Below are positions 8,464 through 26,561 of a stretch of 44,917 nucleotides of DNA, piece by piece. Both the position numbers and the translations under genes were made by a program. Below the pieces are notes generated by a model. It was not told where the DNA came from, made no database searches, and worked only from the letters and a program-made list of their open reading frames with translations. Each line of letters opens with the position of its first letter. Within the stretch, counting starts at the first letter, position 1. Source of the stretch: Nitrospirae bacterium GWF2_44_13. Lineage in GTDB: Bacteria; Nitrospirota; Thermodesulfovibrionia; Thermodesulfovibrionales; UBA1546. The DNA is taken from contig MHEE01000009.1 of NCBI GenBank assembly GCA_001805105.1, positions 42,095 to 87,011 on the forward strand, in the 5' to 3' direction.

Positions 8464-8482
8464 AATATATTTCCCATATTTA

Positions 8483-8610
8483 TATTACCCCAGTTTTTAC
8501 CGTTTTCCCTTTATAGAGCCGCTTATTTTCAAAGTTTGTTTATACTAACATGTGCCTTTCTTAATGAAGAATTATCTTAACTATATAAATCAATACTATG
8601 ACTATTTCAC
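8483..8610. repeat. 128-bp direct repeat, copy A
   Basis: This block, just upstream of dinG, recurs at 10107-10233 in the same orientation with scattered mismatches. The best conserved core, about 42 bases with one mismatch, starts CTTTATAGAGCCGCTTATTT and ends TTTATACTAACA. The two copies bracket the ATPase gene at 8812-9984. The rest of the 348-base gap (8611-8811) holds nothing recognisable. Confidence 0.85.
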
Positions 8611-8811
8611 ATTATTAAGACCATAGCCAAAACAGCTATTACTGCAAAGCGCGGTGAAAATCGAAGGCAAAACACTTACTGCACGTTTATCTTTATATTT
8701 TATGCAATACCGTTGGGAAAAGATGAAAAGGTTGAGAAGGGAAAAAGGTAATCTACTTACCTCTCTGAAAATGGCTGCTATGAGCGCAGGGTTAGGGCCG
8801 CTTTTCTCGTA

Positions 8812-9984
8812 CTACGAATAGACCCCGCTCCATAAGTCGTCGAGAAACTTCTGGTACGGCAGAATAGTGATGCCATCCACAGTCCTCGCACGGGCTTCAA
8901 GACTAACACAGAGATAGCGTTTCAGTTTCTTCTCCTCTGCCAGCGCGCGCAGGGATTTAAGGTCTTGAGAAGACACATTTTCTTTAGCCTTCACCTCGAT
9001 GGCAGTATGATCACCAAGTATAAAATCGACCTCGAACCCCGATGTAGACCGCCAATAACTGAGGGGCTCGGCTGAAACATAATCACTGTAGCTCCTCAGT
9101 TCATGCAAAAGATAGGTCTCAAAGGCTTCGCCGAATTCAGGGGTGCCCGGCATAAATACTCTCCCTTGCAGCTTAGCCACCACTCCGACATCAAAAAAAT
9201 AGTATTTCGAGGAGACCAACGGCTTTCGTTTCACCGAACTGCGCCAAGCCGGAAGTTCATGGATCACAAGTGTATCCTTGAGTATTTCAAAATACTCATA
9301 GACAGTCGTGCGTGGTACCTGAGCATCATTTGAGACATTCGTAAAGTTGACGATTGTGCCGTTACAGAGGGCTGCAACCTTGAGGAAGCGGCTGAACGCA
9401 GGTACATTTCTTGTAGCCCCCTCAGCTATGATCTCCTGCTGCAGATAGGAACCTGCATAGGCCTGAAGGTCGGCGCCGGGATTGTCAGAGAAATAAATAG
9501 AAGGAATCAATCCGCGTTCAAGTGCACGAAATAAGTCGAACTGCTGCCCAAGCTCTCGGTAGGTGAGGGGATGCAGATATTTCGTGCGGGCCCTGCCGCC
9601 AAGCAGGTTCACGCCGCCGCGCCTGAGCTTCCGGGCGCTCGATCCTGTAAGCAGAAAGCGAATCCTGCGCTCTTCTATCAGCCTGTGCACTTCATTGAGC
9701 AGAATGGGCAAACGCTGTATCTCATCAATAACCACAAAACGGTTCTTGGGAGTCAATTCTTGAGCAAGACGACCGGGATTCTGGCTCATCGCCAGGAATA
9801 CCGATGTGTCCAAAAGGTCATAAACCTTCACATCCTTCAGGGTATGGCGAATAAGCGAGGTCTTCCCTGTCTGGCGTGGCCCGAGAAGAAAAAGGGATTT
9901 CTTCTCCAGAAGCGCTGGCAGACTCAGTGCCCTGTCTATATAAAGGCTATCAAGATTTTTCTGTTTCGTCGCCATATTCGTCAT
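8812..9984 (-). CDS. AAA ATPase with DUF4143 domain (1 of 4)
   Basis: This 390-residue protein has Walker A GPRQTGKT (35-42), Walker B VVIDEIQ (84-90) and sensor LLTGSSARKL. A winged-helix-like middle and a C-terminal PD-(D/E)xK-like fold follow, with FEVDF (D320) and AIEVK (E330, K332). DUF4143 ATPases are common in mobile and defence regions, but their function is not established. The gene is visibly richer in G+C (long GC-only runs around 9590-9660) than its neighbours and sits between two copies of a 128-bp repeat, which suggests separate arrival. A second in-frame ATG is at codon 4. Confidence 0.85.
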   Translation of the reverse strand: MTNMATKQKNLDSLYIDRALSLPALLEKKSLFLLGPRQTGKTSLIRHTLKDVKVYDLLDTSVFLAMSQNPGRLAQELTPKNRFVVIDEIQRLPILLNEVHRLIEERRIRFLLTGSSARKLRRGGVNLLGGRARTKYLHPLTYRELGQQFDLFRALERGLIPSIYFSDNPGADLQAYAGSYLQQEIIAEGATRNVPAFSRFLKVAALCNGTIVNFTNVSNDAQVPRTTVYEYFEILKDTLVIHELPAWRSSVKRKPLVSSKYYFFDVGVVAKLQGRVFMPGTPEFGEAFETYLLHELRSYSDYVSAEPLSYWRSTSGFEVDFILGDHTAIEVKAKENVSSQDLKSLRALAEEKKLKRYLCVSLEARARTVDGITILPYQKFLDDLWSGVYS

Positions 9985-10106
9985 ATATGATTACATATGA
10001 CGACAGTAATGTCAAGAGGGAATCTTGAAGCATTCCAGATAGGTATGGACATAGTTTCCAGTTTTCAGGGGATATTGTCCTTAAATGATAATATCCCCTA
10101 TAATTT

Positions 10107-10233
10107 TATTACCCTGATTTTTCCTGTTTCCCCTTTATAGAGCCGCTTATTTTCAAAGCTTGTTTATACTAACACGCCCCTTCTTAATGAAGAATTAACT
10201 TCACGATATAAATCAGCACAATAATTACTTCAC
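10107..10233. repeat. 128-bp direct repeat, copy B
   Basis: This is the partner of 8483-8610, in direct orientation, lying between the ATPase start and the integrase stop. It shares the core GAGCCGCTTATTTTCAAAG and the flank TTCTTAATGAAGAATTA. Copy spacing is about 1.6 kb. It may be a duplicated chromosomal target or a remnant att region; the sequence alone does not decide. Confidence 0.85.
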
Positions 10234-10257
10234 AGACCCTTCCTGCGTCTATATGCA

Positions 10258-11433
10258 TTATTCTTCCTCCCCTTCGGTATCTTTTTTGTAATCTTCCAAC
10301 TTTTTGCTTAGTATGGCCTCAAACGCCGAGCCGTCCTGCCTTGTCAGGTTAGGAATAAACTTGGAATAAACCCTGAAAAGCATTTCCGAGTTTGAATGTC
10401 CAAGCTGCCTTGATACCCACTCGGGATTTTCGCCTGATGCAAGCCAGAGTGTGGCAGCAGTATGCCGCGTCTGATACGGATTCCTCAGTGCCAGTCCTGC
10501 TTTTTTTAAAGTTGGATACCATATCCTCTTTGAAACATTGTTATAATCAAGCGGCCTGCCGCCTTTTGAGCTAAAGACAAGCTCTTCGTCTCCTGTTTTT
10601 TGTTTTTGATCCATAAGGGCATCTTCAACGACTTTTGACATGTCGATATCCCTTATAGAGCTCTCCGTCTTTGGGCTTACCCACTGATTTCTCTCCCAGG
10701 TCTCCCTCACTATTACCTTTTTATTTATGAAATCAACGTATTTCCATTTAAGCCCGTCTATCTCAGCTGTCCTCATCCCTGTGAAGAACCTCACCGCATA
10801 GTAATTATAAAAATCATCTCTTACAGCGCTGAGGAATATTAGTACCTCATCCAGGGAAAAGGGCATTATCTCGGGCTTTTTTACCGTAAGCGGCCTGATG
10901 TTTACAATAGGGTTTGTAAAATCAAACTCCTCCGCGGCCTCATTAAGCATCAGCCGCAATACGCAGAGGATGTTATTTATCCTTTTATTGCTCATTTTGC
11001 CTTTTTTCCCCTTGAGTTCTGAAAGCCGTGTCCTGAATTCCTTTATCATGGACTTTGTTATCTCTGTAAGGGTCCTCCCCTTAAAATAAGGGATAAGATG
11101 AAGGTTTAAAATAGAGTCAAAATCCCTCCTCGTTGATGGCTTCCACGCTACCTGGTTGTTTTTATACCACCTGTCAGCATATACCTCAAATGAAAGCCTC
11201 CCGGAACCTGTATTCGTATCTAAGATCCTCTGCTCGTTCCTGCTTCCAGGGAAATACATGGAATAATTGAATGTGCCCAGTCTTATCTCCCCTTCAATCC
11301 TTCTCATTGCCTCATTCATGAGCTTCATGTTCTCGGAAGTATTTTTCAGTTCAGTATACTCCCTGCATCTTACTCCCTGAAAGAAGAAATCAAAATAAAG
11401 ATAGTCTGCCTCAGTCACCCTGACATTGCCCAT
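10258..11433 (-). CDS. Phage-type tyrosine recombinase/integrase
   Basis: This 391-residue integrase has an N-terminal arm/core-binding part (SAM-like region about 85-180: YADRWYKNNQVAWKPSTRRDF). The catalytic domain contains box I RFFTGMRTAEIDGLKW, the PYQTRHTAATL box with its Arg and following His, LGHSNSEML, and the nucleophile Tyr in FRVYSKF. The first His of the usual HxxR is Gln here, as in many phage integrases. It overlaps the small excisionase-like gene by one base. Together with the XRE regulator at 12275 it forms a phage- or P4-like integration module. Which attachment site it uses is not clear: the tRNA scar at 26516 is 15 kb away. Confidence 0.9.
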   Translation of the reverse strand: MGNVRVTEADYLYFDFFFQGVRCREYTELKNTSENMKLMNEAMRRIEGEIRLGTFNYSMYFPGSRNEQRILDTNTGSGRLSFEVYADRWYKNNQVAWKPSTRRDFDSILNLHLIPYFKGRTLTEITKSMIKEFRTRLSELKGKKGKMSNKRINNILCVLRLMLNEAAEEFDFTNPIVNIRPLTVKKPEIMPFSLDEVLIFLSAVRDDFYNYYAVRFFTGMRTAEIDGLKWKYVDFINKKVIVRETWERNQWVSPKTESSIRDIDMSKVVEDALMDQKQKTGDEELVFSSKGGRPLDYNNVSKRIWYPTLKKAGLALRNPYQTRHTAATLWLASGENPEWVSRQLGHSNSEMLFRVYSKFIPNLTRQDGSAFEAILSKKLEDYKKDTEGEEE

Positions 11434-11681
11434 TAAGAGCTTCTCCTTCTTAGCCTGATCTTATCCATGGGGTTTTTATCTTCAGATGGCATGTCCATGA
11501 TCTTTTCAATCTCATCCCAGATGAAAAGTATCTTTCGTCCTCCAAAAGGCCTCAGATAATGGACGCCTTCAACAAATACTTTGTCCTTAAGGTGCTCCCT
11601 TATATAGCGGACATCGTACTTAATCCTTTGGCTTAATTCCCCTGCCGTTAGATAAATATTCATCTTTCCATGCTCGTGCAA
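11433..11681 (-). CDS. Excisionase/AlpA-like DNA-binding protein
   Basis: This small basic protein has up to 82 residues. A more likely start is the internal Met at 11663 (MNIYLTAGELSQRIKYDV), giving 76 residues. The opening matches winged-helix excisionase or helix-turn-helix type regulators that carry a YLTAxELSxRIKY-type segment, with RPFGGRKILFIWDEIEK after it. It lies directly before the integrase and its stop touches the integrase ATG. It probably helps direct the integrase or controls its expression. Confidence 0.65.
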   Translation of the reverse strand: MHEHGKMNIYLTAGELSQRIKYDVRYIREHLKDKVFVEGVHYLRPFGGRKILFIWDEIEKIMDMPSEDKNPMDKIRLRRRSS

Positions 11682-12274: not shown

Positions 12275-12475
12275 TTGATTAAGTGCCATTTATCAAAACT
12301 TATGGGCGAAAGGAAGCTGAATATTGCAGACTTAGCCAGAGAAATCGGCGTGCATAGGAACACAATCACCCTGCTCTATTATGAAAAGGCTAAACGGATA
12401 GACTTTGAGGTGCTAGATAAGCTGTGCAAGTATTTTAATTGTTCCGCAAGCGAGATACTCGAATACAAAAAATAA
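12275..12475 (+). CDS. XRE/Cro-family transcriptional regulator
   Basis: This compact 66-residue helix-turn-helix protein reads MGERKLNIADLAREIGVHRN for its recognition region and ends with FEVLDKLCKYFNCSASEILE. That ending is the hallmark of the small YozG/Cro-CI group. The start is a TTG with GGAG about 9 bases upstream; an ATG at codon 10 is possible. It is the only plus-strand gene in this part of the island and is divergent from the integrase module, so it is likely the repressor that controls it. Confidence 0.85.
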   Translation: MIKCHLSKLMGERKLNIADLAREIGVHRNTITLLYYEKAKRIDFEVLDKLCKYFNCSASEILEYKK

Positions 12476-12537: not shown

Positions 12538-13815
12538 TCAACCTGTCTTTTGCCTGATGCTCCAGTATTTCCAATATGGGATAGCCTCAACTACATGCCT
12601 TTCTTTCTGAAACTTTGTTTCAGTATTAAGGGTGATAAGCAGTGATCGCCGGAGATTATTTTTCTCCATAAACCTGAACAGAGTTTTAATATCATCCCTG
12701 CCTATTTTCTCCCTTATCTTTATTTCAACGGGCAGAATGCTTTTATCGCTGGCATGGATTATGTCTATCTCCTCTTTCTGCGGAGTTTTAAGGAAAAATC
12801 TTGCATCAAGGGTATTTACAAAAAATTGTTCCAGAACAGAGGGTAAGTCCGCTTGCGGGTTCAGTGCCATGGTAAAGGCTGTATTACAGAGGTAGATCTT
12901 CTTTACCTTCTTCTCGCTTGTGAGAAGATTTCTGGAATAGTTGTAAAGTTTTTGTAAAAATAGGGCATATTCAAGATACGATATGTAATTTGCAATCGTT
13001 CTCTGGTCTACTTTAAGGTCATTGCTTAGGTTCTTATAATCAAGATAAAAGCCCGGCCTGTATGCGGCGATGCTCAGCAGTTTCAGAAGGAGTTCCGGCA
13101 GATCAAGTTTGAAGGTCTGCGGTATATCCACAAAGGCAACTCTTTCAAGCAGGCTCTCCTTAAGATATTTTCTTAGCATATGCTCATCCATATTGAGCGC
13201 CTCGATAAATCCGCCTGTTCTCAGAAACCCCGCCATATGCCTCCTCATATCCATCTCGAAGATATTCTCCCTGTTTCTGTCTATCTTTGCTGCCTTGAAA
13301 TCAAGATACTCTTCAAAGTTCAGGGGCTTGATCAGAAAATCAAAGAATCTCCCTGCAAGGCTTTCCCTTGTTCCCCGCCACATGGTTATCTGAGCTGAGC
13401 CTGTCAAAAACAGTTTCAATTTAGGGTTTGCGTCATAAAGGAGCTTTATCTTGGAAGGCCAGCCGTCCAGCTTTTGTATCTCATCAAGAAATATGAATAC
13501 CTTCTCCTTAGAAATGTCCGTATGAAGCACATCTGTTTCATACCGTTTGATGATGTCTTCCAGATCATATTTCATCTCGTCAAATGAGAAATAAAGGATT
13601 TTGTACGGATTCACGCCTTTTCTGAGAAGCTCATCTATTATCTGGTACATCAGGGTTGTCTTACCCACCCTTCTTAATCCGGTAAACAGCACTATCTGGC
13701 GTTTATCAAGATATTTGATGACCTCGCCGAATATTGCTCTTTTCCTTCCAATAAACTCAGGCGATACCTTGCCATCCCGCCACCAGGGATTAAAGCTTTG
13801 TAGTTCCATTATCAC
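12538..13815 (-). CDS. AAA ATPase with DUF4143 domain (2 of 4)
   Basis: This 425-residue protein has Walker A GLRRVGKT (46-53), Walker B FIFLDEIQ (about 107-114) and sensor LFLTGSAQITM. A middle winged-helix segment follows (LSNDLKVDQRTIANYISYLE). The C-terminal nuclease-like motif is EEIDII (D351) with PVEIK (E364, K366). It differs strongly in sequence from the other three ATPases in the island, so the four are not recent duplicates. It sits between the XRE gene and the recombinase trio. Role unknown. Confidence 0.85.
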   Translation of the reverse strand: MIMELQSFNPWWRDGKVSPEFIGRKRAIFGEVIKYLDKRQIVLFTGLRRVGKTTLMYQIIDELLRKGVNPYKILYFSFDEMKYDLEDIIKRYETDVLHTDISKEKVFIFLDEIQKLDGWPSKIKLLYDANPKLKLFLTGSAQITMWRGTRESLAGRFFDFLIKPLNFEEYLDFKAAKIDRNRENIFEMDMRRHMAGFLRTGGFIEALNMDEHMLRKYLKESLLERVAFVDIPQTFKLDLPELLLKLLSIAAYRPGFYLDYKNLSNDLKVDQRTIANYISYLEYALFLQKLYNYSRNLLTSEKKVKKIYLCNTAFTMALNPQADLPSVLEQFFVNTLDARFFLKTPQKEEIDIIHASDKSILPVEIKIREKIGRDDIKTLFRFMEKNNLRRSLLITLNTETKFQKERHVVEAIPYWKYWSIRQKTG

Positions 13816-13989: not shown

Positions 13990-16476
13990 TTAAATTTTCT
14001 CAATCAGCTTTTTAAGCAATGAGCCCTGTTCAGATATCAAAATATCCAGCGGGAGCATCTGAGACTTCCTTTTTCTCAGGGTTTGGGGAAGAGAAGGATA
14101 GGATAGCTGCATGAAATCCTCGATCTCAGAGCTTTTCATTTTGAGGGCTGCTAGTCCTCCCTGAGCGCGGATAACCACATAAGAAAGCCAGTCTGCTATA
14201 TGGATGTAGCTTGACACTGTTGTGACAGGCCCTGCATGCCCGAGAAGCCTTGCCAAAGCAGGCAATATATACGAAAATAATGATTGCCCTGTTGAAAGCT
14301 CGCCAAATCCGTGCATGACTTCTCTGACCCGCCTCAGGTATTTGGGGCTAAAAAGCTCCTCCTTAAAAAAGGGCGCATGAGAGGGCAGATACCTCGCCTC
14401 TGAGATAGCAGCTATGCCACGCAGTAAAAACCAGTTAGCAAAGGAATGCCTAAGGTCGTGAAATCCTATGTCGGTGCCGCTCTTTGCAAAAATTTTCCGT
14501 ATCGTGCGAGAGCAATCCCTGCTCTCTGCGTAAGGCTCGGACTCTGCAAAAATACTGGCTTCTTCCTTGGAACGAGAATTTCTAAAAAAATTAACTACTT
14601 CTTTTAAATAACCATCGGGAAGCAGCAGAGAAAGGGGAATGCACCTTTCTCCGCTTGAACTCTTGCTTCTCCGGACATAAAGCGTATATCCGCCATCAGC
14701 TATAAGATCTGAGACTTGGATATGAAATATCTCAGAAACGCGCAGCCCAGCATAAAATCCGAGTATTACCGCTATCCGCAGCTTTAGCTTTACCGGGTCT
14801 ATTTCTTCATCTTCATCTTTGTTTTCAATGAATGAGAGTGCATTTTTAACATCTGTGAAAGAAGCAAGAGACTTGGTTCTTTTTATATCTGCCTTTCTCA
14901 GGTTTCTATTCGTGCTCCAAAGAAGCCTGTCCCATGCCATCTTAGGATAAAAATCATCCTGGTAATCATAAAGCACATCCGTAAAGCATTGAATAGCACT
15001 TCTGATGTTGGATGAGTCGTAAAGCTCAAAGGTAACAGATATCATATCTGCCAGCTCCTCGCTTTTTAACTCGTTTATTGCCCTATTGCCCAGAATAAAG
15101 AGAAAGGAACGCCATAGCTGGCTGGCATATGTGTGTATTGATTTGACCTTAATCTCTTTCGACTCCAGCTGTGACACTATCCACTGGCCTAAAAATCTGA
15201 GATTGATTAAAAACTTATCCTCGGCCTTGGAGTCATATTCAGGTAATGAGGAAATAATTTCAGTGATTTTCTTTGATTCCTCAATCCTCACAGCCAAATT
15301 AGCATCCCTGGAGATACCCCACACTGATTTTGTTATTTTTTTATAGACACTCGCAAACTGACGGCTTTCAAATAAAACTTTTTTCCCCTCAGCCAGGCGT
15401 TTTTTTGCCAATGACTCTTCCTTGGGAGAATCTTTTCTGCCTTTTTTTGATGGCTTTTTGTGCCTCCCTGGAATTTCAATAATAAGATGCCTGTTAATAT
15501 CTGGATCCAGTATAGATAGATGCTTAAGGTCAAGCGAATCGCACTTGATATCGCCGCTAAGCGCAGCTATCACAAAACTGGGAAGTTTCATTGACAGCCT
15601 GAACAATGCCTTTTTCCTGAATGTGGCTAAGGACATAGCCGGATATGAGACCTTATTGATTGTTGTTACATGCTGAATCCATTTCAAAAATTTATTTGGC
15701 AGCCCTGAAATATTTTCATTTGTCCTCCATGAAACAGGGAATATATAATCTCCTTGGAATTCCAGTTTTAGCCTCCTTCGCCTCTTATGAAGAAAGAGTA
15801 TCAGCCTGAGAAAGTAGGCCTCGGCAATCGGAGGCATCCAGTACCTGAGATACGATACATCCTCTCCCCCGCGATCTTCTGCCCTTGGATGTTTGTCAAC
15901 TGCAGAAAGTCTTCGCCTAAACGAAAGCGGATTAAGCGTAAGATCTGAAAATTTAGCATCTAAAATATCTCTATGGAAATTCCTGTAAAGTGCCCCTGAA
16001 AGCATTGATATAGCAAGAAACTCGCAAAAAAAGTAATCGGCGATTGTTTCTTCTGAAGCTCTTCCGTAGTCTTGTTTTAACCCAAACAAATAATCCATAA
16101 CAAGCTTGAATGATTCTGATGCGTTAGAAAGGTCATCTGTAAGATCAACGACGAGCTGTCTTGACACTTGTAACGGGATGTTCAGATAATACCCTTCATA
16201 CCTTTTTAAGAGCTTTAATTTTTCGAGTATCTCATTCAAACATATGCATTTTGAAAGGCAGTGGTAGTTGTGTTTACGGAAAACAATCCCGTGCAGCTTT
16301 CTTATATCTTCTTTTGATAACCTCAGAATAGCGTCTTTAATCTCTATCCTATTATCTGATAAAAATCTTACGAATTCTTTTACGGCAAGCAGATACATAC
16401 GCGGAAAACGCTTTTTCTTATTCGCAAGCTTTACTGCTATTTCCAGGCACTCCTTATGAAACTCAGTATATATCAT
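13990..16476 (-). CDS. Large tyrosine recombinase, third gene of the trio
   Basis: This 828-residue protein has a C-terminal tyrosine-recombinase catalytic domain. Box I is GFYAGLRVSEIFHIQ (R579), the beta-hairpin Lys is in VRRSKSS (K605), the HDLRHSFANW box gives H673 and R676, LLGHAG gives H747, and the nucleophile is Y757 in VSSYIH. All key residues are present. Between R676 and H747 are 70 residues instead of the usual 20-odd, a sizeable insertion. A SAM-like core-binding domain is at about 395-510. The first 390 residues match no family I know. Its start overlaps the end of the previous gene by 14 bases. It is far larger than ordinary integrases (300-450 residues). Confidence 0.85.
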   Translation of the reverse strand: MIYTEFHKECLEIAVKLANKKKRFPRMYLLAVKEFVRFLSDNRIEIKDAILRLSKEDIRKLHGIVFRKHNYHCLSKCICLNEILEKLKLLKRYEGYYLNIPLQVSRQLVVDLTDDLSNASESFKLVMDYLFGLKQDYGRASEETIADYFFCEFLAISMLSGALYRNFHRDILDAKFSDLTLNPLSFRRRLSAVDKHPRAEDRGGEDVSYLRYWMPPIAEAYFLRLILFLHKRRRRLKLEFQGDYIFPVSWRTNENISGLPNKFLKWIQHVTTINKVSYPAMSLATFRKKALFRLSMKLPSFVIAALSGDIKCDSLDLKHLSILDPDINRHLIIEIPGRHKKPSKKGRKDSPKEESLAKKRLAEGKKVLFESRQFASVYKKITKSVWGISRDANLAVRIEESKKITEIISSLPEYDSKAEDKFLINLRFLGQWIVSQLESKEIKVKSIHTYASQLWRSFLFILGNRAINELKSEELADMISVTFELYDSSNIRSAIQCFTDVLYDYQDDFYPKMAWDRLLWSTNRNLRKADIKRTKSLASFTDVKNALSFIENKDEDEEIDPVKLKLRIAVILGFYAGLRVSEIFHIQVSDLIADGGYTLYVRRSKSSSGERCIPLSLLLPDGYLKEVVNFFRNSRSKEEASIFAESEPYAESRDCSRTIRKIFAKSGTDIGFHDLRHSFANWFLLRGIAAISEARYLPSHAPFFKEELFSPKYLRRVREVMHGFGELSTGQSLFSYILPALARLLGHAGPVTTVSSYIHIADWLSYVVIRAQGGLAALKMKSSEIEDFMQLSYPSLPQTLRKRKSQMLPLDILISEQGSLLKKLIEKI

Positions 16477-19090
16477 TGCCTTCAGGCAGATAAGAAACAG
16501 GCAAAAGCCCTATTTCACTTACCGCCTCCTCAATAACACTGCTCAGCATTTTTAAGAATTCCTCATAGCAAAGCGCCGAGGTTATTCCCAACGGCTCTTT
16601 GGCCACGTGGTGATGGCCCATAAAGGCATTGGCTATCTCATGAGAAACGCCATGCTCATACAAGTAGGTTCGCATATAATGCCTGGGCATTTTTAGATCA
16701 AACGGATACGGCAGGCCTGCAGCCGCTAAAAAACCAAGCATTCTTTTAAGGGAAAACTCTATAGGACTACCGTCTTCTGCCAGAAAGAAGAAAAACAACT
16801 CGGGCTCAAATTTCAGCATCTGAGGATTTATCTTCCGCGCTACATATCTACGGATTCCATCAAAGCCTTGACGCATATTCCCGGCCAGAATATTCAAGGC
16901 AGATGCCGCAGACAAATACCGATCCTCACGGTAGGCATGGCTTAACTTGTCATTTATTACCACATGGCCATCCTTGCAAAACTCACTAAATGCATAGGGT
17001 ATTTCATTTCTCGGACGGTAAGCCATGCAGAACTGCATAGATAAAAAGCAGTATGAAATATAAAGGTTATGTCTCACAATTACCTCATTCCACTTTTTCT
17101 TTTCGATTGCCTCTTTTAGCGACGTAACATACGAAACTAGATTTTCCTTAAGAGGAATAAATCTTGAGCCATATCCAAAATCAGGTGAATTGTCATAGCT
17201 GGCTATCAGATTGTCAGATTCTGCTCTTGGCGAACCCGATATGAATTTCTTCTCCACTTCCGGCGCCAGATATTTTCTTGCGACACCCTTAGTGGCCATT
17301 TTCTCTTTTTCTATGTTCCGCAATATCTCTTTATGAACAGTTTCGGAAACGCTCAAATATTTTTTTTCAAGGTGTTGCGCTTGTATATGTATGTAATGCA
17401 GGTCAGAACCATAAAGTCTGTAATCCTGTCCGCTTATGTAGCAGGCAAGTATGGGATCTAGTCCGTACCGCGAGGAATATGTCGAAAAAAAAGACAGTGC
17501 AAGCGATGAAATTGTGATTGGCAGCACTGTCTTGTTTGAAATCTGTTTGAGAAAGGAAGCAACCGCATCAAGATTTATCGATGTTTTTTTATATGGGGCT
17601 TCGTGGGAAAAGAAAAACCCATCGTTTTCCTTATTGACCGGGGTCTCATCCATTAATTTACCTATCACATTAGGCAGAGGCACCATCACTGACTCAGAAA
17701 CTTTTCTACAAAGATCGTTTCCCTCTATTTTTGACTTTAATAAAACCAGAGGTGGTTTATACAAAATGTATCGGCCATTTGACCTGGAGATGTAAATATG
17801 CCGTTTCTCGAAATTCAGCCCGTTCTTTAGATCGGTGATATTCCAAAGACTGAAAAGCAGTCTGGGTTCGATACCAGTATGTATTACAATTAGTACGAAA
17901 ATAATTGTATTTTTTTCTTTGTCAGAAAACTTGCTCCAGGATTCCGCAATATACGAATAAATCAAAGAGTAGTGGTGCAATTTATAGTATTTTTTTTCCC
18001 AAAAAAACTTGTGAGAGCGAAGATTAATCTTATCTACCCACCTGTATTTTAAACTTGGCGGGCGGGGAACGGCTTTTTCATTAGCATCCTGGTCCGGATT
18101 GTGAAATAGGTCAAGATGGATTAATTCGTCGGGGTCCATAAGCTCGTCATCTTCCATCCGCTCATGAATTAATTTCCTCATGGGAATAGACGCCGCTGTA
18201 ACATAAACAGGAGGGAATTCGTATCCATCATAATCACTGTCAGTTTCATTACCGTTTATTCTGGCTTGCGTCAACCCTAATTTTCTTATATATGGATACT
18301 GCGGTGTTTTAACAGGTGAATCATGAGCATGAGAATGAATATCTTTATTCTCGATTAATATTCTAATGAGTTTTTTCTTGTACCCTATAGCGGCGTTGCC
18401 TAACTTGTCAGTTTTATTTCCCCATACAATATTATCGTAATTGATGATGGCGCCTTTGATGAGTTCAAGTAAAAAATTATCATCCTCATGTTTTTTCCCA
18501 AGCAGCTCTTCGTCATATTTCTTTTCTTCGTCTGCATAAAAGAAAAAATATCTGAATCCCCTGAGATAATCGCACTCAGTACCATCGACCAGACTGGACG
18601 ACATTACTTTTTTTATCCCTTGGAGAAATCTGAGACAGTAAAATCTGAAAAGTGGAGATGCCTCATTTTTTTTATAACCCATCTGGGAACTCTTTTTATC
18701 CATATAGCCTGAGGCATAAACATAAAAAATAAACACGGGGTGCTGGGTCATATTTACTTTTTTACCGTATTTTAGATCCGGAGATTTTTCAATAAAGGCA
18801 AACCATTTCGATAAAAGATCTGTTATAAAACCCTGCTCTGCCTTTCCCATGTTTTCATGCAAGCATAATTGCTGCAGCAACATCAGCAAGGCTTTTTTGC
18901 CCTGCAATATGCCACGCAGATCTTCAGGCGGGTGAATTAAACTCAGCACCATATCCAGCAGTGTTTTAATTTCATCTCCTTCAGCATAGAACTCTTTTGT
19001 GAGAGCTGAAAGGTAGTCTTCGTCATGATCATATGCCTGCTCTACAGTCACCAACTTTTTAAGCTTATCCACAATTTTTTTAATATCCAC
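16463..19090 (-). CDS. Tandem tyrosine-recombinase-like protein, second gene of the trio
   Basis: This is an 875-residue protein. The C-terminal part (about 640-860) has recombinase signatures: YRPRNEI (R692 or R694), a possible Lys near 715, PRHYMRTYLYEHGV (H804, R807), AFMGHHH (H826) and Tyr in LCYEEF (Y842). Upstream, about 390-580 looks like a second, degenerate copy: IHTGIEPRLLFSLWNITDL resembles box I with R410, and ITISSLALSFFSTYSSRYG then CYISGQ sits where HxxR and GH should be, but those residues are lost. The first 380 residues are unrecognised. It starts at GTG with a strong AAGGAGG. It overlaps the downstream recombinase and probably works with it. Confidence 0.7.
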   Translation of the reverse strand: MDIKKIVDKLKKLVTVEQAYDHDEDYLSALTKEFYAEGDEIKTLLDMVLSLIHPPEDLRGILQGKKALLMLLQQLCLHENMGKAEQGFITDLLSKWFAFIEKSPDLKYGKKVNMTQHPVFIFYVYASGYMDKKSSQMGYKKNEASPLFRFYCLRFLQGIKKVMSSSLVDGTECDYLRGFRYFFFYADEEKKYDEELLGKKHEDDNFLLELIKGAIINYDNIVWGNKTDKLGNAAIGYKKKLIRILIENKDIHSHAHDSPVKTPQYPYIRKLGLTQARINGNETDSDYDGYEFPPVYVTAASIPMRKLIHERMEDDELMDPDELIHLDLFHNPDQDANEKAVPRPPSLKYRWVDKINLRSHKFFWEKKYYKLHHYSLIYSYIAESWSKFSDKEKNTIIFVLIVIHTGIEPRLLFSLWNITDLKNGLNFEKRHIYISRSNGRYILYKPPLVLLKSKIEGNDLCRKVSESVMVPLPNVIGKLMDETPVNKENDGFFFSHEAPYKKTSINLDAVASFLKQISNKTVLPITISSLALSFFSTYSSRYGLDPILACYISGQDYRLYGSDLHYIHIQAQHLEKKYLSVSETVHKEILRNIEKEKMATKGVARKYLAPEVEKKFISGSPRAESDNLIASYDNSPDFGYGSRFIPLKENLVSYVTSLKEAIEKKKWNEVIVRHNLYISYCFLSMQFCMAYRPRNEIPYAFSEFCKDGHVVINDKLSHAYREDRYLSAASALNILAGNMRQGFDGIRRYVARKINPQMLKFEPELFFFFLAEDGSPIEFSLKRMLGFLAAAGLPYPFDLKMPRHYMRTYLYEHGVSHEIANAFMGHHHVAKEPLGITSALCYEEFLKMLSSVIEEAVSEIGLLPVSYLPEGNDIY

Positions 19091-19807
19091 AATCTTTTAC
19101 CTCCTTGCGGTATTTGCAGGCTTCATCAGCCTTAAAATTACCTGCGCACATTAAAAACCTCTTATCGCCGTGCGTACTGATTAAAAGACCCTCACGGCCG
19201 CAGTTTTCGCAGGTTTGGTTTTTTTTCGAAGCCATAACTCGGTAGGATATTTATTTGCCCAAAAAAGTTGCGCCTCGTCTTCCGACAGATGAGCCCTGAA
19301 ATCGCAGGGGCTTTTCTTGTTGAATTTGCCAAAACACGTTATCTTGTAAAATCCTTTATTGTCGCCCTCTTCTTCCCGTTTTCTGTGTTTTGACCCTTGC
19401 AATATCTTCCCGCATAATGGACACAGCATCCCCGCATCCTTGCGCCTTCGTCTGGATAACATCGCAGGCGTCACATTGCCTTTAATCCCCATAGCCTTTG
19501 CCCCAGAAATGACAATCTGTGAGTCCACATCATCCATCAAGAGGACTTTTTCTTGTTCTTTGGCGGTGACTATAAACGCGGGAATTTTCGTTTCACATGC
19601 GCGCACTAAAATATCGTAAGCATAGTGCCTTGCAATTAGGACATATGTGCTATTTTCCCTTAAAAAAATGGGTGGTTTTGAACGGCAGTAAAGTAGCAGT
19701 TTTTTACCATAGACTTTGTCCAGCATCTTTATGATGCCCGCATTGTCCGGCCTTTTCTCAGAAAATCTTATTTCTGAGCGTAAAAGGTCAAGTTCTGCTA
19801 CTTTCAA
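19080..19807 (-). CDS. Double zinc-ribbon protein, first gene of the trio, with -1 frame continuation
   Basis: The 0 frame (19181-19807) gives 208 residues from a TTG start with AAGGAGG upstream. It carries one zinc ribbon (CPLCGK, then ITCFGKF and SPCDF). At 19223-19230 a run of eight A provides the heptamer A AAA AAA in 0 frame. In the -1 frame the sequence continues for 46 codons to a TAA at 19080-19082. It encodes a second zinc ribbon of topoisomerase type: TCENCGREGLLISTHGDKRF, MCAGNF, EACKYRK. The total is about 242 residues. The extended frame overlaps the next gene start by 11 bases, just as genes two and three overlap by 14. The N-terminal part (YVLIARHYAYDILVRACE) is not recognised. 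Either programmed slippage or an indel explains it. Confidence 0.6.
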
Positions 19808-19864: not shown

Positions 19865-20185
19865 ACTATATATTACCCAGCTTCCATCGTCTTTCAGGAG
19901 AATCTGATAATTGGTATTGCAGAGTTGCATTTAAATGATAATTTCCCTTTAAAATCAGCCTGTTGATTGTAATTGCAAAATGTCTTAGATTTACGGATGA
20001 GGCGTTGAATTGGCTAAATCTCTTTTTGATGCTAGTGTGCTAAAACAGCATAACAAGCTTGATTTAATTACGTTTTTTATTAAAAATGCTTACTTTTATA
20101 ACTATTTTTTGACTTGCAGGTATTGTATTATTGATGTGGCAATTAAAAATTGAGCTCACCGCCTCTTGACTTTGGTCTTGAGAAC

Positions 20186-20410
20186 TTATTTTTCAGACGC
20201 ATCCCACAGGTCTCTTGAAGCTTCTTTTGCCAGATATTTTGCTCTTTCCTCGCTCATCCCCCTCCGAAGATAATCAGCAAGCATTTCAATTTCTATTTCC
20301 TCTGCGCTGTTGCAGTGGTCGTAAGAAATTACATCCTCATCGGTTATGCCAAGTATGTTCTTTATAGCCTCTGGTATCTTTGCTTTTCCTGTTTTTATTT
20401 TATAGCCCAT
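20186..20410 (-). CDS. Small acidic hypothetical protein
   Basis: This 74-residue protein (MGYKIKTGKAKIPEAIKNIL, then a strongly acidic helical C-terminus with EEIEIEMLADYLRRGMSEER). No family is recognised. There is no clear ribosome site on the minus strand before the ATG. The size and charge would fit an antitoxin or accessory regulator, but no toxin partner is beside it. It lies between the trio leader and an ATPase gene. Confidence 0.5.
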   Translation of the reverse strand: MGYKIKTGKAKIPEAIKNILGITDEDVISYDHCNSAEEIEIEMLADYLRRGMSEERAKYLAKEASRDLWDASEK

Positions 20411-20582
20411 GGTTTTATAAGGAGGAGGCTAACTGCCTGACTTCTTCCCTGAAATGAGATAGGCACTGTAGCCGCTATACAACTTTATTTTTATCTGTAC
20501 GGCCTTCACCGACTTTCATTACACCTTATTTGATAGCGTATCCAGCCTCTTTGGAGTTATCTCTACTGCCAAACAAATCCTC

Positions 20583-21848
20583 TTAGTGTCCCTCTATGCC
20601 AAAGAAGAACCCGAATGGTATCACAAGTGTATGTTTATCTATAGCTGTCATCTCTGTTCCTGGATAAAGAAGAACTGACATCACATGCTTGGCCTTTAAA
20701 TCCCTTGCACAGTCTTTCAATCCTGAAAAGTCTGACTCTCCGAGATTTTGCGTCCACTTGACCTCTATCGCTACAATTCTTTCGCCCTGTTCTATGAGAA
20801 AATCTACCTCTCTGCCTGTATAAGTGCGCCAGTAATAAAACTGATACCTTGTCTCTCCTACGGCGATTATCTTCTTCAGTTCCGAGGCCGCCCATGTCTC
20901 CACCATGTTCCCGATCTTTCCCTGCCGTTCAAGGGTCTCCCAGTTATCGGCGGATGAAAGGTGACAGGCCATGCCTGAATCTCCGATATACACTTTGGGC
21001 ATCTTTATCAGCCTTTTGCCTATATTTGCGTAATACGGCCTGACGAAGAATATTTGGTATGTTGTCTCAAGCAGGTCTATATACCTCCTGATCGTTGTAA
21101 AGGGAAGCCCGAGCTCTCTTGATATGTCCGAGAAGTTGACAATCTGCCCTGTCCTGAACGCAACGAGATTCAAAAGTCTGTTGAATGCCGGCAGATGTTC
21201 TATAGCCGAAATATTTCTTATATCTCTTTCAATATATGTCTGTCTGTATGAATCAAACCACCGCCGTCTTGCCTTTGCGGAAGGCATCATGGATGGCGTG
21301 GGATAGCCTCCGGCAATTATTTGCTTCTTAATTTCCTCTTTTCTGTCAGCAAAAGAATGCTTCTTCCATTTTTTAAGGAGGGTTGCCGAGTCCTTTTCGC
21401 TGAAGAGGTCAGATAGAATAGATGGTATTGTCTTTCCGTTTGTCTCAGACCATGTAAATGGCTGCAGTTCATGCAGAGCAATCCTTCCGGCAAGGGTCTC
21501 GGAAACCTTTGCAAGGGTCATTAAATTGGCAGACCCTGTGAGGAGATATTGTCCGGGTTCACGATTTTTATCCACTCTGACCTTTATGGCACGCATAAGA
21601 TCAGGCGCTCTTTGCACTTCATCTATTATTGCAGGAACAGGCGTTCCATTTATGAAACCATCGGGATCATTTAACGCTGCATCCAGGGTGATACGGTTGT
21701 CGAGGGTTATATACCTGGCATTCCAGTCGCTTTTGGCAAGTTCCTGCGCCAGAGTGGATTTTCCCACCTGTCGCGCCCCAGTAAGGAGAACGACCGGGAA
21801 ATTTTGCAGAGAATCAATTATATCGGGGGAAATGTGTCTCCTTATCAT
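20583..21848 (-). CDS. AAA ATPase with DUF4143 domain (3 of 4)
   Basis: This 421-residue protein has Walker A GARQVGKS (24-31), Walker B AIIDEVQR (about 73-80) and sensor YLLTGSANLMTL. A long basic insert comes at about 140-190. The winged helix reads DISRELGLPFTTIRRYIDLL, and the C-terminal PD-(D/E)xK-like pattern is REVDF (D349) with AIEVK (E362, K364). This is the most typical member of the ATPase/DUF4143 family in the window. Function unproven; such proteins are frequent cargo in genomic islands. Confidence 0.88.
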   Translation of the reverse strand: MIRRHISPDIIDSLQNFPVVLLTGARQVGKSTLAQELAKSDWNARYITLDNRITLDAALNDPDGFINGTPVPAIIDEVQRAPDLMRAIKVRVDKNREPGQYLLTGSANLMTLAKVSETLAGRIALHELQPFTWSETNGKTIPSILSDLFSEKDSATLLKKWKKHSFADRKEEIKKQIIAGGYPTPSMMPSAKARRRWFDSYRQTYIERDIRNISAIEHLPAFNRLLNLVAFRTGQIVNFSDISRELGLPFTTIRRYIDLLETTYQIFFVRPYYANIGKRLIKMPKVYIGDSGMACHLSSADNWETLERQGKIGNMVETWAASELKKIIAVGETRYQFYYWRTYTGREVDFLIEQGERIVAIEVKWTQNLGESDFSGLKDCARDLKAKHVMSVLLYPGTEMTAIDKHTLVIPFGFFFGIEGH

Positions 21849-21934
21849 AGTTACAATTTAACCACTTAATGGTGAAATTGTCAATAGCAAAGTTAATTAA
21901 AGATACCGCTTTTTCAGCATCGGCTGTTATACGA

Positions 21935-21982
21935 CTATTTTGCCTAAAAGCAAAATAGTTAGCGTAAAGTTTTGCTTTTAGG
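21935..21982. terminator. Two mutually exclusive hairpins after the SEC-C gene
   Basis: CTATTTTGC/GCAAAATAG (21935-21958, 6-base loop) and CCTAAAAGCAAAA/TTTTGCTTTTAGG (21943-21955 with 21970-21982) share one arm, so only one can form at a time. They lie between two minus-strand genes, about 60 bases before the ATPase start and after the gap following another gene start; the pair could terminate or attenuate transcription. No long U tract follows, so this is tentative. Confidence 0.4.
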
Positions 21983-22019
21983 AGAAACGATTACGTCAGT
22001 GTCATGGCAGATTTTTAAA

Positions 22020-23369
22020 CTATTCACCCTCTCTCTCAAGCCCCATCCTCTCCCACATCCATGACAGGTCATAATACGGTCTGCCTTCTTTTTTGTTTTG
22101 TTCTTCACCATTTTCAAAGAGTTTAAGCAAGTCGATAACTTTCTTCCTGCCCTCCACCGTCGTAACAGCCTGAACAGGGGTTTTGCCGTTAAGCACCGGT
22201 ATTTTATCCTTCAACCACTTCTCACAATGCTTCTGCATGAACTGAGAATAGATCTGCTGTTGGAGCTCCAGCGGCAAATCGTTCTTCTGCCTCTCGGGTG
22301 AACTCTTTTTATTGGATTTCATAGCTTCCATGGGGTCTTGAAACATGTCAGCCCTATGGATAACGGCATTTGGTAAGGCCTTACTGATAAGCTTCTTCCC
22401 CTTTTCGAGTCTTTTCTTGGAATTGCTCTCAAATATCAGCCTGTCATTTTTTATCTCGACACTTCCGAGGATTGTGGCGCTGCCCTCTTTATTACGTTTG
22501 TCATACCAGGTAAAACCATTCCCTGCCGGTTCAAAACCCTTTATTTCAGACAGCCCTTTAGCCACAGCCTCTTTGTCTTTGATTTCGAATATTGCTTTTG
22601 AAAACAGCATAGGCTCGCCGCTTGTTGTATGAATCTTTATCGCAGGAGGATTCTGTATCAGGTCATACCAGTAGAAATTGAATATCTCGCCGTTTTTCTT
22701 CAGGAAGTCATCCAGTGTGCTGTCAGGATAGTCCTGCTTATAATCCTCATACTCAGCATGAATGTCATTTAGTATGCGTTCCTTTTGCTTTAGAGGGTAG
22801 GGATAAACGGAACCGCTCATTATGTATTTCCCGTCAACATGCAAAAGCCTTGCAGCATAAATATCCCATTTTTTCAGTCCTCTTGTGGCTGCTCTTTCCT
22901 TTACGTCATATTCTCCGCCGAGCATAAGGTCATTAAGCAACAGCCCCTTTTCGGGGAAGACTTCCTGAACCTCATAAAGGCTTATGACGGAATTCTTCAT
23001 CATGGTCAGTATTTTGTGCTCGTCCAATGATAGATTTTTATTGTTCTCAAGATAAAGGTCTATGAGGGTCTTGTCATTTTCTTCATTAATGAGATAATCA
23101 TAGACAACCCATTCCATGAAGTTCTGGTATGCGATATCAAGGGCTGCGCCGTCTAAATGTTCATTTGGCTTGAATTCATCCCAGAATATGAAATGGGCAT
23201 ATTCCAATGTGTGCTTATAATTTTTTCCATAGAACTTCAGCAGATCTTGGACAAGACGTTTTTGGGTTGAGTCTTCCCTGCCGGTTTCTGTGTATGTTTC
23301 AACCAGGCAGCACTTCTTATGTTTTTTCCCGCTTCCGCAGGGACAGGGATCATTTCTTCCAATCTTCAT
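22020..23369 (-). CDS. SEC-C zinc-motif protein with MbcA/ParS-like C-terminus
   Basis: This 449-residue protein starts with a SEC-C zinc motif ([18 protein letters not shown]), the metal-binding tail known from SecA and many stand-alone proteins. The middle (about 25-370) is unrecognised. Near the C-terminus, [19 protein letters not shown] followed by [14 protein letters not shown] resembles the DUF2384/MbcA-ParS-Xre toxin-binding segment, which is found in some SEC-C proteins. It lies alone between two DUF4143 ATPase genes. Function unknown. Confidence 0.75.
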
Positions 23370-23530
23370 CTTTAAGCCTTTACTGATTATAAACTATCAC
23401 GTCTTTTAACTGAATATCTTATCGGCTTTAATCCTCATTAAGCCTTCTCTCTCAACATCGCTGTAAATATGTATTACACTTTTACATCATGATAAACCTG
23501 AAGCTGCCTGATAAGACTGGCCTTCAATAT

Positions 23531-24814
23531 CTATCCTGTTAAAAGCCATTCCCATAGGGGAATAACATTAATCTTTCCTGCCTCTGTCTTGATGATCTCC
23601 TTGTGCTCTGATGTCACGACGCTGCCCTCTTTGAGAGAAAATCTCTTCATTGCTTCAACCAATCCCCTGATTTCCCTCTCCCTTGTTGCCGGTGATTCCA
23701 TATCGTAGCTCACATTCAGGATGTGCTCTTTGCCGCTTGATGTGTAATAGAAATCCACTTCGTACTTCCCTTTAAAGTAATATATTTTTTCTGCCTTTCT
23801 TCTCAACTCAAGAAAGACGATGTTTTCAAAAATCCTGCCGACATCCATCGAAAAAGGATAGTCCATGGCCGTTTTGAAACCGACATCCACACTATAGATC
23901 TTCCTTGGGTTTCGCCATTGTTCGCGCACTGATTTTGCATATATTGGCACTGTGAACAGGGCGTATGCGTCCTCAAGGTAAGATATATACTCGTAGACGG
24001 TATTGCGCGAGATGCTCAGCCCCTCGGATTTAAAGTCATTGTAGAGTTTATTGAAACTTACATGCGTCGATATATTGGAAAAACAAAACTTGATCAGCCG
24101 TTTAAGAAGAAATGTGTTCGAAATTCCGTACCTCTCGATTACGTCTCTATACATGATGAGATCAATGTATTCCTGAAGAGTTTTGATAAAGACAGCCTGG
24201 TTGTAATTTATTATCTCTGGGAATCCACCTCTTATGAAGAAGTCTGCCTGAGCGTTTCTTATTTTTGCCTGAGACTTTGAGGAATGAAGATCCGGTTTAA
24301 TCCCCTTAAATCTCAGAAATTCGCTGAAGGAAAGAGGAAATACCTCATAGCTCAGTGTCCTGCCCCTCAACGCCGTCGCTATCTCCTTGCTCAGCAGTTT
24401 CGCAGACGATCCTGTTATAAAGACCGAGCAGTTTTCTGTATCATAGAGCCGCCTAATAAACTTTTCCCAATTCTGAACATTCTGTATCTCGTCAAAAAAG
24501 AGATATACCTTTTCATTCTTTTTGTCCGGATACATTTCATAGTAGGCATCCAGCATGGTATTCAGGTCTTTCAACTGAATAGGGAAAAGCCTGTCGTCCT
24601 CGAAATTTATATAAACAATATTCTTCGGATCAACATTCTTTTTGATTTTGTTGATTATCGAATAAAGGACATGGGTCTTTCCGCTCCTCCGCACCCCGAT
24701 CAGGGAGATGACCTTACCTGTATCGACAGGGATATGCATATCCCTGTCCAAAACATAGGACAGGTCTTTTTCCTGTGAATCGGCAATGAGTCTTTTAAAA
24801 ATATCTTTCTGCAT
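23531..24814 (-). CDS. AAA ATPase with DUF4143 domain, nuclease motif degraded (4 of 4)
   Basis: This 427-residue protein has Walker A GVRRSGKT (40-47), Walker B LFFDEIQN and sensor VFITGSSAKLL. The winged helix reads FKSEGLSISRNTVYEYISYL. In the C-terminal domain the first acidic residue is kept (YEVDF, D354). The ExK position reads NVS (367-369), so the PD-(D/E)xK pattern present in the other three is broken. It may act as an ATPase without nuclease-type activity. It is the last minus-strand gene of the island. Confidence 0.85.
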   Translation of the reverse strand: MQKDIFKRLIADSQEKDLSYVLDRDMHIPVDTGKVISLIGVRRSGKTHVLYSIINKIKKNVDPKNIVYINFEDDRLFPIQLKDLNTMLDAYYEMYPDKKNEKVYLFFDEIQNVQNWEKFIRRLYDTENCSVFITGSSAKLLSKEIATALRGRTLSYEVFPLSFSEFLRFKGIKPDLHSSKSQAKIRNAQADFFIRGGFPEIINYNQAVFIKTLQEYIDLIMYRDVIERYGISNTFLLKRLIKFCFSNISTHVSFNKLYNDFKSEGLSISRNTVYEYISYLEDAYALFTVPIYAKSVREQWRNPRKIYSVDVGFKTAMDYPFSMDVGRIFENIVFLELRRKAEKIYYFKGKYEVDFYYTSSGKEHILNVSYDMESPATREREIRGLVEAMKRFSLKEGSVVTSEHKEIIKTEAGKINVIPLWEWLLTG

Positions 24815-25101
24815 TATGTCCCTCCATATAGGGTAAGTATATACTATTTATTAACCTCTGTAAAGGGTACAAAAATTCTCGGTCCCATCAAGCCCAAACT
24901 CCGCCGATTTTTGCATTAACAATATTCTTATGCAAATTTCCCCTCAATATTAATCATTTTCCCCCGCAAAGCGCAATAGCGTGTATCCACGCAAAAACAC
25001 AGCAGTGTACAGGCAGGAAACATGGAAACAATCAAGCCATGACAGCAAATGAGTTATTCTCTCTCTTGATTTATAAGTGCAATTTCCTGTAATGTTATAT
25101 C

Positions 25102-25938
25102 ATGAGTGCCATAACCGGTCATAATAAGCCTGTGAAAGGCATACAAAATATAACACGCGGTCCATTGGGCAGGTCTGAGGCGAGATTTTTGGCTAAGGTC
25201 AACGCGAAAGTTACATTCACGACCAGTGAAGCGCAGGGCATACTTGGTTACAAGGGTGAAGACTCAACACAGAAGTTTCTTGAGCGTCTTCAAACTAAAG
25301 GATGGATAAGGCGTATCAGGCGGGGGAGATTTGCCGTAATCCCGCTCTCATCAGGAGAAAACCGTACTCCGCAGCTCCATGAATTCATTGTCGCTATGGC
25401 GCTTGTGTCACCAGCGGCTATTGCATACTGGTCTGCGCTTAATCATCACGGTATGACCGAACAACTCCCCAGAACCGTATTCATTGCAACAAACCATCCT
25501 GTGCGGCGGCGGCCAAGTGAGGTGCTCGGCGTGCGTTACAATATCGTCTCTCTGCGGCCTGAAAAGTTCTTTGGCAATGTGAAGGACTGGATTGATGAAA
25601 TGCCTTTTATGGTTACAGACCGTGAAAAGACTATCATTGATGGACTGGATCTTCCGCAATACGCAGGCGGCGTAGAGGAAATCGCCAAGGCGCTTTCAAA
25701 TGCATGGGCTCAACTTAATGAAGCCAAACTTCGGAAATATGCTGCGAAGATCGGAAATACCGCCGCTGCAAAGCGACTGGGCTTTCTGATGGAAACACTT
25801 GGATTAGGGAACATTGAAGCACTCCGCAAGGAAGTCGCCCTTGCGCCTGGTTTCTCGCCGCTTGATCCTACACTGCCGCGACACGGGAAATACAACCGCC
25901 GATGGGGGCTCATAGTTAACGCGGAGATTAAGGTATGA
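25102..25938 (+). CDS. AbiEi-type antitoxin (type IV toxin-antitoxin)
   Basis: This 278-residue protein has an N-terminal winged helix (TFTTSEAQGILGYKGE, then LERLQTKGWIRRIRRGRFAV) and the AbiEi antitoxin segment (SPAAIAYWSALNHHGMTEQL, then DREKTIIDGLDLPQYAGGVE). These proteins repress their operon and neutralise the AbiEii nucleotidyltransferase toxin. The next gene starts on an overlapping ATGA, as in true abiEi-abiEii pairs, but it breaks after 18 codons. The gene is richer in G+C than its surroundings. Confidence 0.85.
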   Translation: MSAITGHNKPVKGIQNITRGPLGRSEARFLAKVNAKVTFTTSEAQGILGYKGEDSTQKFLERLQTKGWIRRIRRGRFAVIPLSSGENRTPQLHEFIVAMALVSPAAIAYWSALNHHGMTEQLPRTVFIATNHPVRRRPSEVLGVRYNIVSLRPEKFFGNVKDWIDEMPFMVTDREKTIIDGLDLPQYAGGVEEIAKALSNAWAQLNEAKLRKYAAKIGNTAAAKRLGFLMETLGLGNIEALRKEVALAPGFSPLDPTLPRHGKYNRRWGLIVNAEIKV

Positions 25939-25991
25939 TTACGACTGCAGAACTGCATCGCGCAGCAGAGGATGACGGTAGAAATGGATAG
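25935..25991 (+). pseudogene. Truncated AbiEii toxin start
   Basis: The frame reads MITTAELHRAAEDDGRNG and stops at TAG. Its opening resembles that of AbiEii/nucleotidyltransferase toxins (MITxAELHRxA), and it overlaps the antitoxin stop as ATGA. The rest of the toxin (normally about 290 residues) is absent. The antitoxin is therefore an orphan here. Confidence 0.6.
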
Positions 25992-26053
25992 AAGCGTTTC
26001 ACAAGCTTACCGGCTTATGATTCTGCTCTTGTAAATAAAAATCAAATACGTAT

Positions 26054-26317
26054 ATGGAAAAGAAAGAACTTATAAAAAGATACACAGAGATGCACGGCAA
26101 CGTTTTAGGGCAAAGAGAAGACCTATATGTTAAGGTTGCCTCTCTGATAAAAGAAATGGACTATATCGGAATCACGGACAGGTACGAAAGGGAAGTTAAA
26201 AAGCTCTCTCTTATAGAAAAAGAGATCGGAAACAGCAAAGACTTGGATACGCTAAAATCTTTAGCCGCTTCCTTATTTCAACCAAAAGCCAGGCAAACTG
26301 ACGGGAAAGTGGAATAA
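26054..26317 (+). CDS. Small helical hypothetical protein
   Basis: This 87-residue, lysine- and glutamate-rich protein (MEKKELIKRYTEMHGNVLGQ onwards) is probably all helical. No family is recognised and no good ribosome site is seen before the ATG. It lies at the right edge of the island, just before the tRNA scar. It could be real or a chance frame. Confidence 0.4.
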   Translation: MEKKELIKRYTEMHGNVLGQREDLYVKVASLIKEMDYIGITDRYEREVKKLSLIEKEIGNSKDLDTLKSLAASLFQPKARQTDGKVE

Positions 26318-26515
26318 TAATAGAATAATCACTTCCATTCTTGTGATACTTGACCATTCCCGCGGCAAAACTTTATCAAATCTATAAACTTAAAGTATAA
26401 AAAAGTATAAAAATATAGCTCAAAAAAACTTAAAATAAATCATCTATGATTATAAGGGATGTTAAGTGGTATTTAATAAAATGTAACCCCTTAATTTTAA
26501 AGGATTTTATTCAGA

Positions 26516-26561
26516 GCTCATAACCCGAAGGTCAGAGGTTCAAATCCTCTCCCCGCCACCA
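26516..26561 (+). tRNA. 3' half of an initiator-like tRNA-Met(CAU): likely attachment-site scar
   Basis: The 46 bases run from the anticodon loop (GCTCATAACCC, anticodon CAT) through GAAGGTC to a perfect T arm (AGAGG-TTCAAAT-CCTCT), the acceptor 3' strand CCCCGCC, discriminator A and encoded CCA. The CCC after the anticodon loop is the hallmark of initiator tRNA. Just upstream, CAGA replaces the expected GGG, so the 5' half is missing. This is what remains of a tRNA gene when an element integrates at the anticodon loop. The remaining parts of 26318-26659 hold nothing I recognise. Confidence 0.8.

Follow-up and report, generated by a model that had tools for sequence, protein, structure and literature searches.

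A conserved trio of a ParB-like zinc-ribbon gene and two giant recombinase-type genes, a likely recombination module of mobile islands in Nitrospirota and Proteobacteria

Multi-recombinase elements and the gene plan of the trio

Mobile elements with several recombinases form a short list that includes the gamma-mobile-trio (GmtX/Y/Z), a three-gene unit with recombinases that resides in defence-rich islands. Tn554, GInt, and SE elements combine a recombinase of ordinary size with one large one (PMC10214605). Tn554 (TnpA/B/C) has two recombinases and one small helper protein (as cited in PMC10214605), and GInt elements (ginABCD; Bardaji 2017, PMC5385486) encode, besides three recombinases, a small protein of the helix-loop-helix type in an operon at one end of a site-specific island with cargo. 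One of the recombinase-like GInt proteins, GinC, lacks part of the active site, namely, the first arginine, as reported (PMC5385486). SE elements, reported mainly in Gammaproteobacteria, are recognized by the intA-tfp-intB-srap gene order and by strand-biased 6-bp junctions; they include an ordinary IntA, a large recombinase, a recombinase-fold partner with none of the RHRY set (Tfp), and the small Srap, and their first gene adjoins the left end (PMC10214605).

The locus described here is found in a 44,917-nucleotide stretch (the window) of the genome of Nitrospirae bacterium GWF2_44_13 (G000; a 2.0-Mb assembly in 18 contigs) and comprises three minus-strand genes (Table 1; our own G, C, and L numbers denote genomes, contigs, and loci). 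The ORF listing gives 19181-19807 (208 aa) for gene 1, 16463-19090 (875 aa) for gene 2, and 13990-16476 (828 aa) for gene 3, as in the initial annotation. These coordinates bear out the reported 14 bases shared by genes 2 and 3, whereas the 11-base overlap of genes 1 and 2 exists only when gene 1 is extended in the -1 frame (19080-19235).

Like GInt, the trio is a recombinase operon with a small protein near one end of an island that carries cargo, and one of its recombinase-like members has an incomplete active site; however, the residue missing from gene 2 is the tyrosine of its C-terminal half. With only two recombinase-type genes, both giant, and a ParB-like zinc-ribbon protein encoded by gene 1, its gene content differs from ginABCD, and the two are compared by gene plan. 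Like SE elements, the trio pairs a large recombinase with a recombinase-fold partner that has no complete active site, and its first gene lies next to an element end, but the additional ordinary IntA and the small Srap have no counterparts. The initial annotation had likened the trio to the gamma-mobile-trio and, more loosely, to Tn554. Neither kinship is supported: the NCBIfam GmtY model scores 14.4 bits against the trio with a cut-off of 340, gene 2 matches no NCBIfam or PADLOC family, and, unlike Tn554, the unit has no ordinary-size TnpA-like gene, which sets it apart from that transposon as described. We know of no ParB-like or zinc-ribbon protein in Tn554. The model NF040692 (recomb_assoc), which we take to be that of GmtX, did not match gene 1 in NCBIfam scans; a whole-genome search with it was silent, as it was in the control genomes. 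No known family fits the trio, with SE and Tn554 set apart by their described gene plans. In its general plan it resembles GInt, SE, Tn554, and the gamma-mobile-trio (PMC5385486, PMC10214605), and it probably works in a similar way.

Table 1. Features of the window discussed in the text
Feature	Coordinates	Strand	Basis
Ordinary arm-binding (PF12167) tyrosine integrase	10258..11433	-	Pfam; homologue with same neighbours in L013
82-aa protein overlapping integrase, possible excisionase	11433..11681	-	ORF; position only
Small XRE-type HTH gene facing trio	12276..12475	+	Alignment to L013; reading frame read directly
AAA_14/DUF4143 ATPase between gene 3 and XRE gene	12538..13815	-	Family match; not at that place in L013
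Gene 3, giant tyrosine recombinase, 828 aa	13990..16476	-	ORF, Pfam, conserved residues, profile match to Xer structures
Gene 2, giant recombinase-like protein with two domains, 875 aa	16463..19090	-	ORF, homologues, residues, hhalign
Gene 1, predicted ParB/Srx-fold domain and two zinc ribbons, frameshift-split	19080..19807	-	Homologue L011, Pfam zinc ribbon, model, fold search
5.2-kb insert, cargo: two AAA_14/DUF4143 ATPases and SEC-C protein	19874..25065	.	Alignment break relative to L011; family matches
AbiEi, cargo between island end and trio	25102..25938	+	Family match; 89% identical to L011 AbiEi
Island terminus adjoining tRNA half	26383..26516	.	Alignment: conserved in G005, G003, L011; similar in L017
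45-bp 3' half of elongator tRNA-Met(CAT), attachment remnant, island right end	26517..26561	+	Intact tRNA in relatives

Proteins of the trio

Judging from its sequence, gene 3 encodes a complete tyrosine recombinase with the R-K-H-R-H-Y set in its C-terminal catalytic domain. It matches Pfam Phage_integrase over the cut-off (E=2.9e-12), its profile matches the structures of XerA, XerC, and XerD, and R579, K605, R611, R676, H747, and Y757 are found in all 16 homologues, with H673 in 15 of them, so that the catalytic motifs previously noted in this protein amount to the full set. Scans of Pfam, NCBIfam, and PADLOC with this protein gave matches to generic integrase and Xer models alone. The N-terminal half was considered as a second recombinase-like domain and set aside: the signal is weak (hhalign P about 0.0015-0.03).

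The catalytic motifs likewise noted in gene 2 were confirmed in part: the R/K/H-R/H residues are present in the C-terminal half, but the tyrosine is absent from that domain. The match to Phage_integrase is weak (E=0.08), searches of NCBIfam and PADLOC gave no family, and the gene 2 profile matched none of the solved structures. Seven residues (Y566, G641, R692, K715, R724, R803, and H826) are identical in 14 of 14 homologues, and the HxxR motif (H804, R807) is found in 12. At the place expected for the nucleophile, the C-terminal catalytic domain has no conserved Tyr; 12 of the 14 homologues have a serine there (S838). The N-terminal half (residues about 380-590) is homologous to the C-terminal half (hhalign E=1.5e-6, probability 90%; 0.17 for the reversed control), and Y566, followed by a "YIHI"-type sequence, occupies the usual tyrosine position of this half, where the remaining catalytic residues have been lost. 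Neither domain contains the complete catalytic set. With Y566 in one half and the pentad in the other, the two halves appear to retain complementary parts of one active site, which may be a novel arrangement for such an enzyme. The AlphaFold model of gene 2, built from four sequences, has a mean pLDDT of 34, so this two-domain reading derives from sequence comparison only.

The predicted fold of residues 1 to 105 of gene 1 is that of the ParB/sulfiredoxin family (mean pLDDT 76 for the model), and ParB, Noc, KorB, and PadC are the top matches in a fold search, with Z scores that reach 8.1, a borderline value. The assignment to the ParB_N fold is further suggested by the L015 version of gene 1, which passes the Pfam ParB_N model. 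However, unlike the ParB/Noc/KorB family, window gene 1 carries zinc ribbons, as do most versions of the protein after the ParB-like domain, and lacks the CTP-binding GERR-type motif, having RHYAYD in its place; the L015 protein has GHRRWKA there. Pfam, NCBIfam, and PADLOC gave no family name to genes 1 and 2 as such.

In the window, the 208-aa frame of gene 1 ends before the second zinc ribbon, which lies downstream in the -1 frame, whereas in L011 both ribbons are encoded in a single 244-aa ORF whose product is 68% identical to window gene 1. The window copy is therefore frameshifted, with 1 nt missing directly after the A8 run at 19219-19226. The sequence A_AAA_AAA is in frame in the window, and the relatives keep gene 1 in one frame; the shift may be a programmed -1 event, a mutation, or an assembly error, and because of it the window copy of the trio may be inactive.

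Distribution of the trio and ends of the islands

A gene 2 profile found matches in 19 of the 396 Nitrospirota genomes searched. At all 14 loci whose contig continues far enough to show gene 3, this gene directly follows gene 2 in the same order and on the same strand, mostly overlapping it, and a gene-1-like ORF precedes gene 2 wherever the upstream end is present. Such tandem conservation makes a chance arrangement untenable and answers the objection that the genes might not occur together elsewhere; the trio is a conserved but unnamed unit. The host is, as had been surmised, not a gammaproteobacterium but a member of Nitrospirota, and the related contigs belong to Nitrospirae bacterium JdFR-86, Thermodesulfovibrio sp., and Nitrospira sp. 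The viral contigs that were searched with gene 2 gave no match, and a scan of the genome-contig collection yielded just three relatives, all already known. In two Nitrospira-like genomes, a second ParB-like gene is encoded upstream of the trio (L044 7801-8772 and L045 7592-8542). The genes of L011 (G134) and L012 (G012) are identical, yet these contigs come from genomes filed under different families, and one of the two assemblies is probably contaminated.

Profiles rebuilt from the Nitrospirota loci detected remote trios outside the phylum, in Proteobacteria. Several Acinetobacter plasmids encode a 223-aa protein and a single 1682-aa fusion of genes 2 and 3 (E=5e-12 and 2e-22, respectively), the resistance plasmid pNDM1_010045 encodes a relative of the trio with proteins of 154, 779, and 1066 aa (6e-18, 2e-37; L134 14971-20992), and a Sphingobium plasmid encodes gene 3 (1e-55) and a truncated gene 2. 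Closely related copies of the 1066-aa protein are found on many Acinetobacter plasmids; by itself, this protein is present in 261 plasmid records, nearly all from Acinetobacter, with single records from Vibrio, Aeromonas, and Sphingobium.

The fused Acinetobacter genes and the 150 bp upstream of them are 92-99% alike on 8 plasmids. In these 8 records, the shared sequence breaks off at a single position ~150 bp upstream of gene 1, and the flanks outside it are unrelated. The ORF targeted in pYH12207-1 is uninterrupted in pYH12138-1. The empty-site partner of L132 matches on the left side only, the right flank being rearranged beside an IS3, and the right end of the element was not found. This comparative evidence suggests that the Acinetobacter cousin is a mobile element with an end set beside gene 1. 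Its plasmid sites are not in tRNA genes, its cargo includes BREX, and no other integrase is annotated around the fused copies.

The Nitrospirota islands are associated with tRNA genes. The tRNA-Met half in the window starts at the anticodon loop, CTCATAA, and two genomes of the same genus (G007 and G004) have an intact tRNA-Met at that site, followed by the same neighbour gene, an arrangement that points to a tRNA-integrating island. G000 itself has its intact tRNA-Met on another contig (C16), 1.3 kb short of the contig end, with an IS256-type transposase (recognized by eye) behind it. The island therefore has its left end outside the window, and it would measure at least 70 kb if the contigs join at tRNA-Met. 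A typical genome has one intact tRNA-Met and a single close 45-bp half, which is found near the trio. The same half flanks the trio in G000 and at five further loci (G001, G012/G134, G022, G056, and G161), always with its CCA end pointing away from the trio. Its distance to gene 1 is 121 bp in L014, 325 bp in L017, 1.5 kb in L043, 3.6 kb in L011, 6.7 kb in the window, and about 16 kb in G022. In two Nitrospira loci, the half is instead one of tRNA-Lys(TTT), at 0.85-0.91 kb from gene 1. No tRNA half was seen in the stretches examined for Nitrospira L044-L047, an Rfam search of three Nitrospira loci showed no tRNA remnants, and in G127, G211, and G091 a position of the trio next to a tRNA-Met half could not be established, the contigs being short or the half not found.

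In G005, a tRNA-Met island without the trio (L107/L108; C6:37784-71265) has 33 kb, including a fatty-acid/polyene-like cluster, between the intact tRNA-Met and its 3' half. In G127 (L110; C8), an AAA_14/DUF4143-like ATPase gene (8973-10569) lies between two tRNA-Met 3' fragments; such candidate-defence ATPases may be mobile in their own right, using tRNA-Met.

The genes that the initial annotation regarded as cargo, ATPases, SEC-C, and AbiEi, do lie within the island that has the tRNA-Met half as its end. The AbiE pair is not intact, however: AbiEi is whole, and comparison with L011 shows that nearly all of AbiEii is gone from window 25938-26383, leaving AbiEi alone. On the other side of the trio, the XRE-type HTH gene shows 74.5% DNA identity over 200 bp to L013 13456-13655; in L013 it stands directly after gene 3. 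A DinG-type helicase (6574-8463) that resembles type IV CRISPR-associated DinG models adjoins the integrase and has no good match in 6 of the 7 other genomes of the genus. Between the integrase gene and dinG, which overlap in L013, the window has an inserted AAA_14/DUF4143 ATPase gene (8812-9984) with 145-bp direct repeats on either side (83%; 8467-8611 and 10091-10234); this repeat-flanked unit looks like a small mobile unit.

Proposed role of the trio

From its conservation, catalytic residues, and position at island ends, and from the left end of the Acinetobacter cousin, we infer that a family of mobile genomic islands would use the trio as its recombination (excision/integration) module, with a probability of roughly 0.72. 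The earlier view of a recombinase unit on a mobile island is thus strengthened by the recurrence of the trio and by the tRNA-Met half as the island end. Gene 3 would cut and rejoin DNA at the attachment core, gene 2, with its pentad and Tyr in different halves, would join the same synaptic complex, and the ParB-fold zinc-ribbon protein would recognize the island end or control direction. In Nitrospirota, insertion would occur at tRNA anticodon loops (tRNA-Met and tRNA-Lys), leaving the 3' tRNA half at the trio-proximal end. A bolder version, which we consider tentative and somewhat unlikely, has the active site of gene 2 split, its C-terminal domain contributing R-K-H-R-H and its degenerate N-terminal domain the attacking Y566; together with gene 3, or within the 1682-aa fusion, gene 2 would then make up the greater part of a synaptic complex that normally consists of four subunits, with just one or two chains, the ParB-like protein helping or gating.

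Arm-binding integrases are the usual enzymes at tRNA sites, and one such integrase lies inside the same island in the window. This integrase, with its small neighbour, could move the island into tRNA-Met, the trio being a passenger or a nested second element. The 82-aa neighbour has no Pfam family match and is an excisionase candidate by its position. Homologues of the integrase are encoded downstream of the trio in L013, where integrase, XRE gene, and trio are arranged as in the window and a DinG-type helicase adjoins the integrase, and, in G161, together with the trio on one 89-kb stretch; the trio is also followed by integrases in Nitrospira L048 and L050, and in L050 an ordinary integrase gene overlaps the tRNA-Lys half from the other side. 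However, about 15 kb separate the window integrase from the tRNA half, whereas in L014 and L017 the recombinase nearest to the half is the trio. The trio contigs of G056, G134, and G012 have no ordinary integrase, and the Acinetobacter cousin has its own left end with none annotated beside it. We therefore regard this explanation as the main rival, though an unlikely one.

A role of the trio in anti-phage defence or regulation, as cargo of defence-rich islands, is suggested by neighbours such as AbiEi, PDC-S01 ATPases, restriction systems, and BREX, but it is very improbable, given that PADLOC matches none of the three proteins, that gene 3 keeps the full recombination active site, and that the genes occupy element ends in a fixed orientation. 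It is hardly to be expected, either, that the trio is a divergent member of GMT, GInt, SE, or Tn554: several adjacent tyrosine recombinases and a small protein at one island end are a shared plan (PMC5385486, PMC10214605), but the GmtY score is far below its cut-off, the unit has no ordinary-size recombinase, and the ParB-like product of gene 1 has zinc ribbons, in contrast to the published descriptions of GinD and Srap as small, helix-loop-helix or coiled-coil proteins (PMC5385486, PMC10214605).

As a putative recombination module, the trio would extend the short list of mobile elements with several recombinases by an unnamed member, one that is found in both Nitrospirota and Proteobacteria. 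Its Acinetobacter versions travel with BREX or share plasmids with resistance genes (e.g., pNDM1_010045), and gene 2 would allow tests on a tyrosine recombinase in which the pentad and the nucleophile appear to be conserved in separate domains.
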